Shown here piece after piece: positions 48,908 through 53,046 of a stretch of 64,000 nt of DNA. Below the pieces are notes generated by a model. It made no database searches and was not told where the DNA came from. It saw only the letters and a list, made by a program, of their open reading frames with translations. This stretch comes from Candidatus Vesicomyosocius sp. SY067_SCS001 (lineage in GTDB: Bacteria; Pseudomonadota; Gammaproteobacteria; PS1; Pseudothioglobaceae), in contig NZ_CP054877.1 of the NCBI RefSeq assembly GCF_014706615.1, positions 372,001 through 436,000 on the forward strand, in the 5' to 3' direction. The position numbers were made by a program, and so were the translations under genes. The first letter of the stretch is position 1, and each line of letters starts with the position of its first letter.

Positions 48908-49702
48908 ATGGATGTTTCTCAGACAATTGTTTTAGCGTTAATCCAAGGTTTAAGTGAGTTTTTGCCTATCTCTTCTTCAGCTCATTTAATTTTAGTACCA
49001 AAGTTAACCAATTGGACTGACCAAGGTTTAGTATTTGATGTAGTGGTGCATATGGGTACTTTAAGTGCAGTGATATTTTATTATCAAGCAATGATTAAGA
49101 GTTTGTTTTTTGATTTTTATCATTCAATAATTAAACGTCAAATTATTGGTCAATCAAAGTTAGCATGGGGAGTGCTGTTAGGTACTATCCCAATAGGATT
49201 AGTTGGTGTGATATTTAAAGATTTTGTTGCAGTTGATTTACGTTCAATAGAGATTATTGCTTATACAACACTAGTGTTTGGATTACTTTTAGGTTTTGCT
49301 AATTGGTCTAATCATAAAAATAAAAATCCAAAAAGTGCAATCAGTTGGATAGATGTTAGCTTTGTTAGTATGATGCAAATCTTAGCATTAATTCCAGGAA
49401 CTTCTAGATCAGGAATAACAATTACTGCTTGTATGTTAGTAGGATTGTCTAGGAAGTTATCAATACAATTTTCATTTTTATTATCAATTCCTGTAATTAC
49501 TTTGTCATTAATACTTATGTTGGTTGATTTGTATCATCAGACACAATTGGTTAGTGTTAGTTTATTAGTTCTGGGTTTTGTAGTTTCAACAATTAGCGCT
49601 TATGCAACTATTATTTTTGTTATTAGGTTAATAGATATGGTTGGTATGACACCATTTATTGTCTATAGATTAACTTTAGGCGTATTTTTATTCTTTTTAT
49701 AA
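48908..49702 (+). CDS. uppP: Undecaprenyl-diphosphatase (UppP/BacA)
   Basis: An inner-membrane phosphatase that recycles the lipid carrier used for peptidoglycan and other envelope polymers. The protein has 264 residues with about eight hydrophobic segments. The two signatures are present: G-L-S-E-F-L-P-I-S-S-S-A-H-L near the N terminus and P-G-T-S-R-S-G-I-T later. Its survival next to the ddl/fts ruins shows that some wall-lipid chemistry is retained. Confidence 0.96.
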   Translation: MDVSQTIVLALIQGLSEFLPISSSAHLILVPKLTNWTDQGLVFDVVVHMGTLSAVIFYYQAMIKSLFFDFYHSIIKRQIIGQSKLAWGVLLGTIPIGLVGVIFKDFVAVDLRSIEIIAYTTLVFGLLLGFANWSNHKNKNPKSAISWIDVSFVSMMQILALIPGTSRSGITITACMLVGLSRKLSIQFSFLLSIPVITLSLILMLVDLYHQTQLVSVSLLVLGFVVSTISAYATIIFVIRLIDMVGMTPFIVYRLTLGVFLFFL

Positions 49703-50534
49703 ATATAAGTTTCAATCTAAACTTTTTTCTATTTGTTATTTAGTTATAACGGTATCATCGCTCTAGCAATATTGCTATTATATTAGATTATTAGTTATTT
49801 GTTGCACCTATATTAATTGCTTAGTAGTATGCTATTCAAATATGGAATAATTTTTAGGCTAATATTTAGCTTTTAGCTTATTAATTAGGTTTTACTTTAA
49901 AAATAAACTCAAAATGAATAGTCTATAATCTATTTGTAGTAAGTGCATGCCTAATGAGTATTTAATTCATACTATAAAGATTGAGTTTAGTTTGACTAAA
50001 ATGCAAATTATTTTCATCTTTTGAATTGATTAAACATTGATCGACACATTTAAATTTGATTACAAGTATTAATTTAGCGTAGAGTAAATGTATTTATAGG
50101 TGAATTATTTTTTTTAAATAGGTTTGATGTGTTAAGTATCTTTACTTCAATACATTTGAGATTCATAAATAAAAATATCTAGTATTTTTAATCAATGGAA
50201 TAATATACTATGACCACCTTTAATTCTAAAATCTTCGCACTTTGACTAATATTTGTTTTCCTATTTCATTGAAAAGATCTTAACTAGATACAAAAGTCAT
50301 GAATAAATATTTTTCCATTAAATCGTATACTTTTAACAGAATGTGTTGAAAAGTATTAAAATATTTATGTAATACAAACTATTTTTATTTAACATATTAA
50401 ACTTTTTACCCAATGTTATAGAGGTCTATTAGTTACAAACTTATATTTACTTTAATAACTAATCAAGTCGTTAACTTTTATTTATTGAACTAATATTAAA
50501 GTAAATGTATTAATCACCTTGTTAAAATAAAAGT
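49703..50534. other. Gene-free stretch between uppP and the ddl remnant
   Basis: About 830 very AT-rich bases, closed in all frames. By synteny the 5' half of ddl and possibly murB or murC once lay here, but I could not read a convincing piece of them on either strand. Confidence 0.45.
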
Positions 50535-50930
50535 TGTTTACCATAATCGTGGTTGAATCTTGTATAGGCGGAAGTTTTATCGGTATTACTTACTAAGTAA
50601 AGTGGTTTTTAAACCTATTTTGACCAAGCAAAAATTGATATGCTAGATATTATAGCTAATAATACTAGATAAGTTTAGTGTGGTTAGCGAACAAACTACA
50701 TTAGAAATTGTATGTGATGTAATAAAAACTCATTTACTAATATTATAATATATCAATCACTACTTTTTCTGGACTTAGTAGTGCTACGATAGATAAATCT
50801 GTTGATATGATTTGTTTTATTTTTTGTGCTCTAAAAAAACTGTTTTTAACTAGCATCAAACAGTTTGGTTAAAATCGAGTTAAAATAGTCTAGTAAAATA
50901 TTTATTTTATAAACTATTAAAGTAAATCTT
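50535..50930 (+). pseudogene. ddl: Probable D-alanine-D-alanine ligase remnant
   Basis: Near 50545-50600 the plus strand reads I-I-V-V-E-S-C-I-G-G-S-F-I-G-I-T, close to the V-V-K-P-x-x-x-G-S-S-I-G-I ATP-grasp loop of Ddl. Near 50770-50830 it reads S-G-L-S-S-A-T-I-D-K-S-V-D-M, and near 50875 R-V-K-I-V then N-I-Y-F-I-N, as in the R-V-D ... F-x-E-V-N end of Ddl. Stops and frame changes lie between. The position before ftsQ-ftsA-lpxC is the standard dcw-cluster order, which supports a weak match. Confidence 0.55.
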
Positions 50931-50944
50931 TATGTAGTAATAAT

Positions 50945-51250
50945 AATGGCTAAAGTGATATTTTATGACGATAAAAAATAGCCTGTTGGATTTTAATGTA
51001 TTTGAATATACTCCGGTATTGTAATTGGACGTTAAAGTGAGTCATTTGGAGAGACTTTTGATAGAGTGTAATTGGTTATTTTAGAGAATATTTAATGTAA
51101 ATATCGTGCTAGAAACTGTAATGGAATATGTTGATACAATTAGGAAATCAGTAGTGTGGTTAAATGTAATTATTGTGGGTGTATTAAATTAAGTGAAAGT
51201 TCTACTTGTTGATTTCATACTAAATTAGACTTATAATTAGGGTATTTTAA
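50945..51250 (+). pseudogene. ftsQ: Possible ftsQ remnant
   Basis: From the ATG near 50946 (M-A-K-V-I-F-Y-D-D-K-K) closed frames follow. The piece at 51085-51190, N-V-N-I-V-L-E-T-V-M-E-Y and then V-V-W-L-N-V-I-I-V-G-V-L, can be aligned with the W-V-x-x-A-x-V-R-R-x-W-P-x-x-x-x-V-x-V-x-E region of FtsQ. The match is weak and rests largely on position between ddl and ftsA remnants. Confidence 0.35.
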
Positions 51251-51335
51251 AGTAAAAAATACTAAAAATATAAAATATTTTTCAAGTGGAAAAATAGTTG
51301 AACATTAATTTTACTTAAATGAATGATATAAAATA

Positions 51336-51970
51336 ATGGTTAGTAGTGAGAATTATTCTGTAAGTGTTGATATAAGAATAAGCAAAATTTTGGTATTAAT
51401 TGCTGATGTTAATAAGATAGCAAAAGCAATGTTAAAAGTAGTTAAAACTGTTTATAGTATTGTAAATACTATAAACCATAATGTTTAACCAATATTTATG
51501 ATTTAAATTTAAGTACGATTAATCAATATAGAAAAATATTGGTAACAGGTGTAAGCAATATTTCTGTTTTTGTAGTTGACGGTATTATTTATAGTAATAT
51601 TTTTAGAATAGGTGATAATCAAATTACTCAAAATATTATTAATGTCTTTCTGTCTTATTTAAAAAGACAGAAAGATTCAAAATTAAACATATTTATGCTC
51701 AATTAAAAATAGTACTAGCGGATAAATTAATTGAATTAAAACAGTTCAATTCTATTGAACAATATTATTTATCATTACATAATTTAGTTGATACTTTAGA
51801 AAAATATTATTAAGATATTTATTTTTTTAAGTAAAATTTAAAATCTGAAAGATATATAGAAGACTCAAATCAGGATTGTTATTAACAGGTGATATGTCTT
51901 GAATAGAAGGTTGTAAGGGGTTGTTTATTAATATATTTAAATAAGCATCAAACTGGTTAAAGTTGATACA
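51336..51970 (+). pseudogene. ftsA: Cell-division ATPase FtsA fossil
   Basis: An ATG at 51336 opens S-V-D-I-R-I-S-K-I-L-V-L-I-A-D-V-N-K, matching the N-terminal V-D-I-G-T-S-K phosphate-1 motif of FtsA with G-T changed to R-I, and V-Y-S-I-V-N-T-I follows. Near 51550-51650 is I-S-V-F-V-V-D-G-I-I-Y-S-N-I-F-R-I-G-D-N-Q-I-T, like the central strand region. At 51866-51940 is S-G-L-L-L-T-G-D-M-S, stop, I-E-G-C, clearly the V-L-T-G-G-x-S-x-I-E-G motif near the C terminus. About half of the 1.26 kb gene is deleted and the frame is lost. Confidence 0.8.
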
Positions 51971-52134
51971 AATAAAATTATAAGTAAGAATGTGATTCTT
52001 ACTAGTTTTAATTATATTTGTATACTAAGCTTGTTGATGCATATTGACAATAATACTTATTTAGAAATAGTGTAAGAACCTCAACAAACTAACTTTGTGA
52101 GTAAAATAAAATTATTATTGGAATAATAAATATT
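51971..52134. other. lpxC leader; site where ftsZ would be expected
   Basis: Only 164 bases separate the end of the ftsA fossil from lpxC. In the usual dcw order an ftsZ gene of about 1.1 kb lies here. No FtsZ-like segment can be read, so it has been deleted. The remaining bases are AT-rich and must now serve as the lpxC promoter and leader. Confidence 0.7.
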
Positions 52135-53046
52135 ATGATCAAGCAAAGAACCATTAAAAAAGAAGTTAAAGCTAGAGGTATCGGTATTCATAGTGGTAGT
52201 GTTGTAAATATGACTTTGATTCCTGCTAAAGAAGACCATGGTGTAGTATTTAGGCGGATGGATGTGGGTGATAAGTTGGTGCGTGCACATAGTACCTTTG
52301 TTAATGAGGTGGTGCTTTCTACTGGGCTTGAAAATAAAGGTGTTAAAGTGTCAACAGTTGAGCATTTAATGAGTGCATTTTCAGCTCTTGGGATTGATAA
52401 TGTTTTAGTAGAACTTGATTCGTTTGAAGTACCAATTATGGATGGCTCATCTGCCCCTTTTATTTTTCTGGTTCAATCTGCTGGTATTGAAGAGCAAAGT
52501 ACTCATAAAAAATTCTTTGTCATCAAGGATACTATACGAGTAGAAAATGGTGATTCATGGGCACAAGTGTCTAAATATGAAGGATTTAAGGTATCACTTG
52601 AAATTGATTTTGATCATAAAAAAGTTAAGGAAAGTGGAGAAAAATTGAGTATTAATTTTTCCAAACAGTCATATTTAAAAGAAATTTCGCGTGCTAGAAC
52701 TTTTGGTTACATAAAGGATGTAGAAATGATGCAAAGACAAAATTTAGCGCTTGGTGCTAGTATGGACAATGCGATTGCTTTAAGTGATGATGATGTTTTA
52801 AACGAAGATGGCATGCGTTATCAAAATGAATTTGTTAAGCATAAAATTTTGGATATTGTTGGTGATTTATATTTATTAGGCAGTAATCTAATTGGACATT
52901 ACGAAGGATACAAGACAGGGCATTTGCTTAATGATCAATTGTTATCAACTATTTTAGCAAAGCCTGATACATGGTCTATTGAGACATTTGAAGAAGATAA
53001 CTCGCCTATTCAATTTTATTCTGAAGATTGGCAAAATTCCTTATAA
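52135..53046 (+). CDS. lpxC: UDP-3-O-acyl-N-acetylglucosamine deacetylase
   Basis: The zinc enzyme for the committed step of lipid A synthesis. The protein has 303 residues, as expected. The start M-I-K-Q-R-T-I-K, the G-I-G-I-H-S-G segment, the zinc histidine in S-T-V-E-H-L-M-S-A, the M-D-G-S-S-A-P motif, and H-K-I-L-D-I-V-G-D with the later G-H-Y-E-G-Y are all present. The gene is intact although everything just upstream in the ancestral dcw cluster has decayed. Confidence 0.97.

Follow-up and report, generated by a model that had tools for sequence, protein, structure and literature searches.

In a 64,000-nucleotide stretch of the genome of Candidatus Vesicomyosocius sp. SY067_SCS001 (the whole stretch is called the window below), the genes uppP and lpxC, both still open as a first-pass annotation had stated, are separated by 2432 bases in which comparison with relatives reveals the ruins of four genes, in the order pepN, cinA, dusA, ftsA (Table 1). 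The sole listed open reading frame (ORF) of at least 60 residues that touches this interval is 69 residues long and lies on the reverse strand at the lpxC edge. The order uppP-pepN-cinA-dusA-ftsA-lpxC is common in the family, and pepN-cinA-dusA stands upstream of ftsA or lpxC in many relatives' loci, the exceptions being rearranged or cut.

Ruined genes between uppP and lpxC

We denote the genome that holds the window as G000, other genomes of the family by similar G numbers, and compared loci by L numbers, of which L001-L039 come from relatives and L040-L080 (n = 41) from outgroups. The family set comprises 83 genomes, 49 of them at least 90% complete; "good" genomes (n = 49) are those with completeness of at least 90% and contamination of at most 5%. 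An order-level genome search covered the same 83 genomes as the family-level one, and outgroups were therefore taken from another search. G000 belongs, with G001, G002 and G009, to a clade with genomes of about 1.0 Mb. Protein scores in the interval were compared with those of 200 dinucleotide-preserving shuffles.

The FtsA pieces that the first-pass annotation had recognized at 51370 and 51866-51920 belong to a single ordered ruin, the best piece of which reaches 74.7 bits, whereas no shuffle exceeded 21.6; the reversed interval gave no match to FtsA better than E 1.3. Six ordered pieces correspond to approximately residues 1-98 and 212-405 in the FtsA of a relative, with about residues 25-50 and 99-211 missing, and alignment to the intact gene of G004 shows 12 indels, 10 of them of a length not divisible by 3, together with 12 in-register stops. 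Homology to FtsA extends to 52123, followed by a relic stop codon at 52127-52129, leaving a gap of 5 bp before the lpxC start at 52135, equal to the gap in G004, rather than the 164 bases given earlier. No intact FtsA was found in the window's genome, where nothing exceeds the TIGR01174 cut-off and the best match (66.5 bits) is MreB.

In an alignment examined by eye, the ftsA ruins of all four clade genomes share the deletion of one base, a TAA stop in place of CAA and a late stop change, which means that the gene had died by the time of their common ancestor. The end of the ruin and the gap behind it are nearly unchanged across the same four genomes, probably because this segment is the leader of lpxC, a gene with a ratio of nonsynonymous to synonymous substitution rates (dN/dS) of 0.009-0.018 among G000, G001 and G009.

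The remaining ruins do not form the ddl-ftsQ-ftsA cluster that had been proposed at this site. The PepN identity rests on four protein pieces that follow the order of the gene (the best at 29.3 bits, shuffle maximum 28.1) together with blastn matches to L001 (best E 7e-18 and 5.5e-13); a relative's intact gene is named pepN_proteo at 1045 bits. The motif GGSFIGI (50568-50588), previously taken as Ddl-like, lies inside the cinA ruin and corresponds to the CinA motif ESCTGG(N/S), and a relative's intact cinA matches TIGR00199 at 167 bits. The dusA trace is visible at the DNA level, the Dus protein score in the interval being at chance (41 of 200 shuffles as high). Ddl and FtsQ were tried as further candidates and rejected, with scores at chance (56 and 159 of 200 shuffles as high, respectively); in the same test FtsW was likewise at chance and FtsZ gave no match. 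The genome has its intact ddl elsewhere, behind murC-murB at G000:735596-736477, some 310 kb from the interval.

Table 1. Coordinates of the genes, ruins and repeat discussed in the text (window positions, unless a locus is named)
Feature	Position	Strand	Basis or remark
uppP, intact flank	48908..49702	+	264-aa ORF; directly precedes pepN in many relatives
pepN (aminopeptidase N) ruin, scattered pieces	49910..50459	+	DNA matches and four ordered protein pieces
cinA (PncC domain) ruin	50501..50911	+	48.5 bits vs shuffle maximum 23.9
dusA trace, DNA level only	50944..51028	+	75% over 85 bases to L001 dusA, E 2.9e-10
ftsA ruin, large internal deletions, frameshifts and stops	51336..52129	+	protein pieces, shuffles, alignment to G004
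last ~45 bases of ftsA ruin and gap before lpxC	52085..52134	+	alignment by eye
lpxC, intact flank	52135..53046	+	303-aa ORF
MreB triplicated segment	L139:2816-2896 (G000); L153:4159 on (G001); L154:7960 down (G009)		24-base unit

Successive losses of FtsZ and the septal genes

A tubulin/FtsZ profile found no match in the window's genome, in any of the 12 genomes of its genus or in any of the 83 family genomes, while the identical search was positive in 13 of 14 controls; the earlier statement that this cell must divide without a Z ring thus holds. Whereas 40 of the 41 outgroup loci have ftsZ upstream of lpxC (L043 gave only lpxC), the relatives' loci show an ftsA match directly upstream of lpxC in 38 of 39 cases (L027 ends short there) and an FtsZ match in none of the 39. 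Because FtsZ is absent family-wide, including from loci labelled free-living Thioglobus, it was gone before this symbiosis, and on this genomic evidence its loss is shown to predate the common ancestor of the SUP05 / Thioglobus / Ruthia / Vesicomyosocius-type family. Comparison with relatives that have ftsA intact upholds the ftsA ruin, but not the first-pass proposal that the locus had caught the loss of ftsZ in the act. What the window records, judged from gene content across the family, is a later loss of FtsA alongside other septal genes.

The fate of those other genes was followed in a panel of 26 genomes (searched for SEDS proteins, FtsI, FtsQ, MinC, ZipA, ZapA and MurC-F), selected by hand from the 83 mainly for completeness and genus spread. 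Two SEDS proteins are present in 22 of the 26 (the second fragmentary in drafts G012 and G076); within the clade, G000 and G001 have RodA only, G009 has RodA and an FtsW ruin, and G002 has a broken RodA. FtsI occurs in 21 genomes (split in G007) and is missing from the four clade members and draft G080. In the stretches that we read, ftsW survives in all four clade genomes as traces riddled with stops, and next to an intact rsmH either short remnants of ftsL-ftsI are left or none. FtsQ was found in G004, G005 and G061 using the SUP05 FtsQ of G018 as query (1e-35 or better), PF03799 being too insensitive for this protein (10 of 26, missing these three genomes); no ftsQ turned up in the murC-murB-ddl regions of G000 and G002, the two clade genomes read there. 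For G004, the names FtsW (337.2 bits, cut-off 337.5), FtsL (29.8, cut-off 42.45) and FtsI (below every NCBIfam cut-off shown) rest on best fit and on the neighbouring murG and rsmH. ZipA and ZapA were found in none of the 26 genomes, weak negatives given that only 1 and 4 of 14 controls, respectively, were positive. We did not encounter this loss of the septal set (ftsA, ftsW and ftsI, with ftsL and ftsQ where examined) in the literature searched.

Two side observations concern the same genes elsewhere in the family. MinC is present in 16 of the 26 genomes (one below cut-off; e.g., G051:C1:1039113-1039403) and was not found in G000, G001, G002, G004, G009, G011, G012, G018, G019 and G043; its retention without FtsZ, its usual target, suggests either another target or a leftover. 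In G007, a less reduced clam symbiont, ftsA (L117:7551-8713) and ftsI (L142:5884-7751) are both split and ftsW is open; this second, partial case might reflect decay in progress or sequencing errors.

Taken as a sequence of events, FtsZ was lost before the family ancestor, leaving ftsA directly against lpxC. Most members have kept ftsA intact alongside FtsW and FtsI and, in the genomes inspected for them, FtsL and FtsQ. In the ~1.0-Mb clade, ftsA died in the ancestor, and ftsW and ftsI are ruined or gone, as are ftsL and ftsQ in the members read for them. We consider this two-step history, as reconstructed from gene content and order, almost certain.

Wall synthesis and division in the reduced clade

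The window's genome retains open genes for MurC, MurD, MurE, MurF, Ddl, MurG, MreB, MreC, MreD, PBP2 and RodA. PBP2 gives its one transpeptidase-domain match, and since G000 yielded no transpeptidase-domain or SEDS protein beyond PBP2 and RodA, the lateral-wall machine is the one wall synthase of this type that it has. This machine is intact in three of the four clade genomes (G000, G001 and G009), and in these three species, which have also lost FtsA, FtsW and FtsI, MreB starts MFNFLKGQSLDFLKGQSLDFLKGQSL, with an N-terminal segment tripled in frame. The repeat in the G000 gene consists of three copies of its unit with 97% matches, and no in-frame start codon was seen inside it; the segment is single in 11 other aligned family MreBs and in the broken gene of G002. 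In E. coli, GFP goes to the membrane completely when it carries two tandem copies of the MreB helix and only slightly when it carries one, according to the part of PMC3163269 available to us, and the tripled segment may similarly strengthen membrane binding by the symbiont MreB. Among the matches listed for literature on vesicomyid symbionts (Vesicomyosocius, Calyptogena) with MreB, none mentions MreB.

Given this inventory, the window's cell would divide by wall synthesis directed by MreB, RodA and PBP2, roughly as proposed for Chlamydia. From the sequences at hand, we regard an MreB-driven division step in this species as evenly balanced between true and false; the loss history and MreB division together, offered as the best single account of the genomes, seem to us probable.

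Several observations weigh against the account. The hydrophobic moment of the symbiont MreB segment (best 9-mer) is 0.30, compared with 0.58 in E. coli, and does not support a strongly amphipathic helix, so the parallel with the E. coli tandem helix is put forward as a hypothesis. Co-loss of the septal genes is confined to one clade, which amounts to few independent events at most, and the second case, G007, is partial and may be an artefact of its sequencing. In G002 (L140, L141, L152, L169), mreB, mreC, mreD, mrdA, rodA and murG are all in pieces and the MurD match is shortened, while dacA, murC, murB and ddl match in full. One sister at least therefore does without the proposed MreB machine; G002 would divide with neither this machine nor the FtsA module, and possibly has no wall at all. 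Finally, one published view, in the portion of PMC7826175 available (citing Newton 2008), is that pliocardiine symbionts make no wall, their peptidoglycan pathways being reduced.

The condition of G002 and the published view that no wall is made are also what would be expected from plain reductive decay, in which the wall becomes dispensable in the host, the septal genes are lost first and the lateral-wall genes after them, division is physical (through membrane excess or squeezing by the host) and MreB serves for shape only. Selection on the surviving genes argues otherwise: among G000, G001 and G009, dN/dS is 0 to 0.03 for mreB (at dS 0.12-0.13) and 0.11-0.15 for mrdA, and MurC-F are open. 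We judge decay of this kind unlikely, though it is the strongest of the alternatives.

FtsA in relatives without FtsZ, and known division systems

FtsA scores above the curated cut-off (TIGR01174) in 73 of the 83 family genomes and in 45 of the 49 good ones, the four exceptions being the members of the ~1.0-Mb clade; the other six genomes below the cut-off are drafts 53-86% complete. Among the 45 positive good genomes, FtsA is split in G007 and has one in-frame TAA inside the match in G055. As none of the 83 genomes has FtsZ, tethering of FtsZ cannot be the role of FtsA in this family. In most members FtsA would instead work with FtsW and FtsI without FtsZ, and the relatives may use an FtsZ-free, FtsA-based septum; FtsA has been proposed to activate FtsW directly (PMC10591338, available in part). 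We did not meet FtsA retained across a family without FtsZ in the literature searched; among the matches listed for SUP05/Thioglobus with ftsA, the gene appears only as a general marker.

FtsA of these relatives could also be a leftover, or hold another role (e.g., a PilM-like one), and not be a division protein. The protein diverges fast, with a mean identity of 0.43 over six family genomes versus 0.85 for LpxC and MreB. In an alignment of 63 family FtsAs (78 ORFs of at least 380 residues minus 15 repeats) and 36 outgroup FtsAs chosen by the same rule, Arg300, an FtsZ-contact residue, is present in all 36 outgroup sequences and in none of the 63; many other outgroup-fixed sites have changed as well, so we make no claim that the FtsZ site alone was released. 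Against a non-division role, the G004 protein scores 276.5 bits as FtsA (cut-off 175.85) and 44 as PilM, and a predicted model of the L126 protein (predicted local distance difference test, 90.3) has a template modelling (TM) score of 0.86 to E. coli FtsA, with 0.74-0.86 to FtsA chains versus 0.55-0.65 to PilM; solved FtsA structures match it best. ATP-site residues are conserved, and D14, G16, G45, D210, G212, G336, G337 and G381 (E. coli numbers) are conserved in 62 or 63 of the 63 sequences. Median dN/dS of ftsA is 0.16 (15 pairs from six genus members; lpxC, 0.047), indicating purifying selection, and the clade that lost FtsA also lost FtsW and FtsI. A role outside division is accordingly improbable in our estimation.

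Further observations on the same alignment concern the form of the protein. The E. coli oligomer-control positions 96, 153, 215 and 286 are substituted in the family: M96 (I, V or M in outgroups) is mostly polar or charged; R153, an arginine in 35 of 36 outgroup sequences, is mostly V, N or T and never R among the family states listed; T215 has become V in 59 of 63; and R286 is H or Y in 36 of 63. Preferential erosion of subdomain 2B was considered but is not supported: among sites with at least 90% conservation in outgroups, the mean share left unchanged in the family is 0.41 for 2B, compared with 0.17-0.55 for the other regions. The C-terminal helix has a median moment of 0.51 in the family and 0.57 in outgroups, exceeding the 90th percentile of shuffles in 6 of 63 and 4 of 36 sequences, a test that does not discriminate. 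In E. coli FtsA, M96E together with R153D prevents double filaments (PMC11323482, as far as available).

A more elaborate version of the preferred account envisages two successive FtsZ-free division modes: in free-living SUP05 and most of the family, a complete divisome of the membrane actin FtsA with FtsW, FtsI, FtsL and FtsQ, often with MinC, in which FtsA has lost its FtsZ-contact arginine and changed its lateral-interface residues, and then, in the ~1.0-Mb clam symbionts, loss of this module and a takeover by MreB helped by the triplication. As a whole, we hold this reading only tentatively.

A division protein supplied by the host, e.g., through a transferred bacterial gene, follows the first-pass suggestion that the cell might depend on its host and has a precedent in the transfer of Wolbachia ftsZ to a host, as stated in the available part of PMC6952346, but FtsZ is also absent from free-living members of the family (PMC6509183), so no host rescue was needed when it was lost, and we think this explanation very improbable. 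A recent deletion of ftsZ and ddl-ftsQ at the locus, as the outgroup order with ftsZ between ftsA and lpxC might suggest, has next to no chance of being correct, as relatives lack ftsZ both here and elsewhere, ddl and ftsQ score at chance, and ddl is intact at its other site.

Parts of this history have been published, in sources that were available to us in part. Loss of ftsA, as in the window, was reported for Ca. V. okutanii (AP009247, 1 022 154 bp; PMC1974822), a different species-level genome, in a statement that lists gene absence only. G001 shares with the window's genome the ftsA lesions, the loss of FtsW and FtsI, and the MreB repeat. Ca. Thioglobus autotrophicus SUP05 (PMC6509183), of the same family, was described as lacking FtsZ and possessing MreB, like the window's genome; the main text does not contain "ftsA". 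SUP05 relatives keep FtsA, FtsW and FtsI, which the window's genome has lost. FtsA, FtsW, FtsI, FtsQ and MinC in SUP05, a cultured group, are now named candidates for the means by which FtsZ-less free-living bacteria divide. Across the family, the genomes offer a natural series of dismantling of the division machine, from an FtsA module with MreB, to MreB only, to neither.

Chlamydia resembles the window's genome in having neither FtsZ nor FtsA and in the proposal that MreB directs wall synthesis (PMC4164004, PMC10591338; this and the following comparisons draw on the available parts of these sources). Unlike the window's genome, it retains FtsQ and FtsL in 99% and FtsK in all of the genomes of a review table (PMC10591338) and depends on PBP3/FtsI plus PBP2 (PMC4164004), whereas the window's genome has no FtsI, no FtsW and, in the stretch read, no FtsQ. 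Most Wolbachia of supergroups B, C and D lack FtsL, FtsB, FtsI and FtsW but, unlike the window's genome, these supergroups keep FtsZ and FtsA (PMC10591338). In that table, which covers obligate intracellular bacteria, each of the 12 groups has either both ftsA and ftsZ or neither; here, in contrast, FtsA outlives FtsZ across a family.
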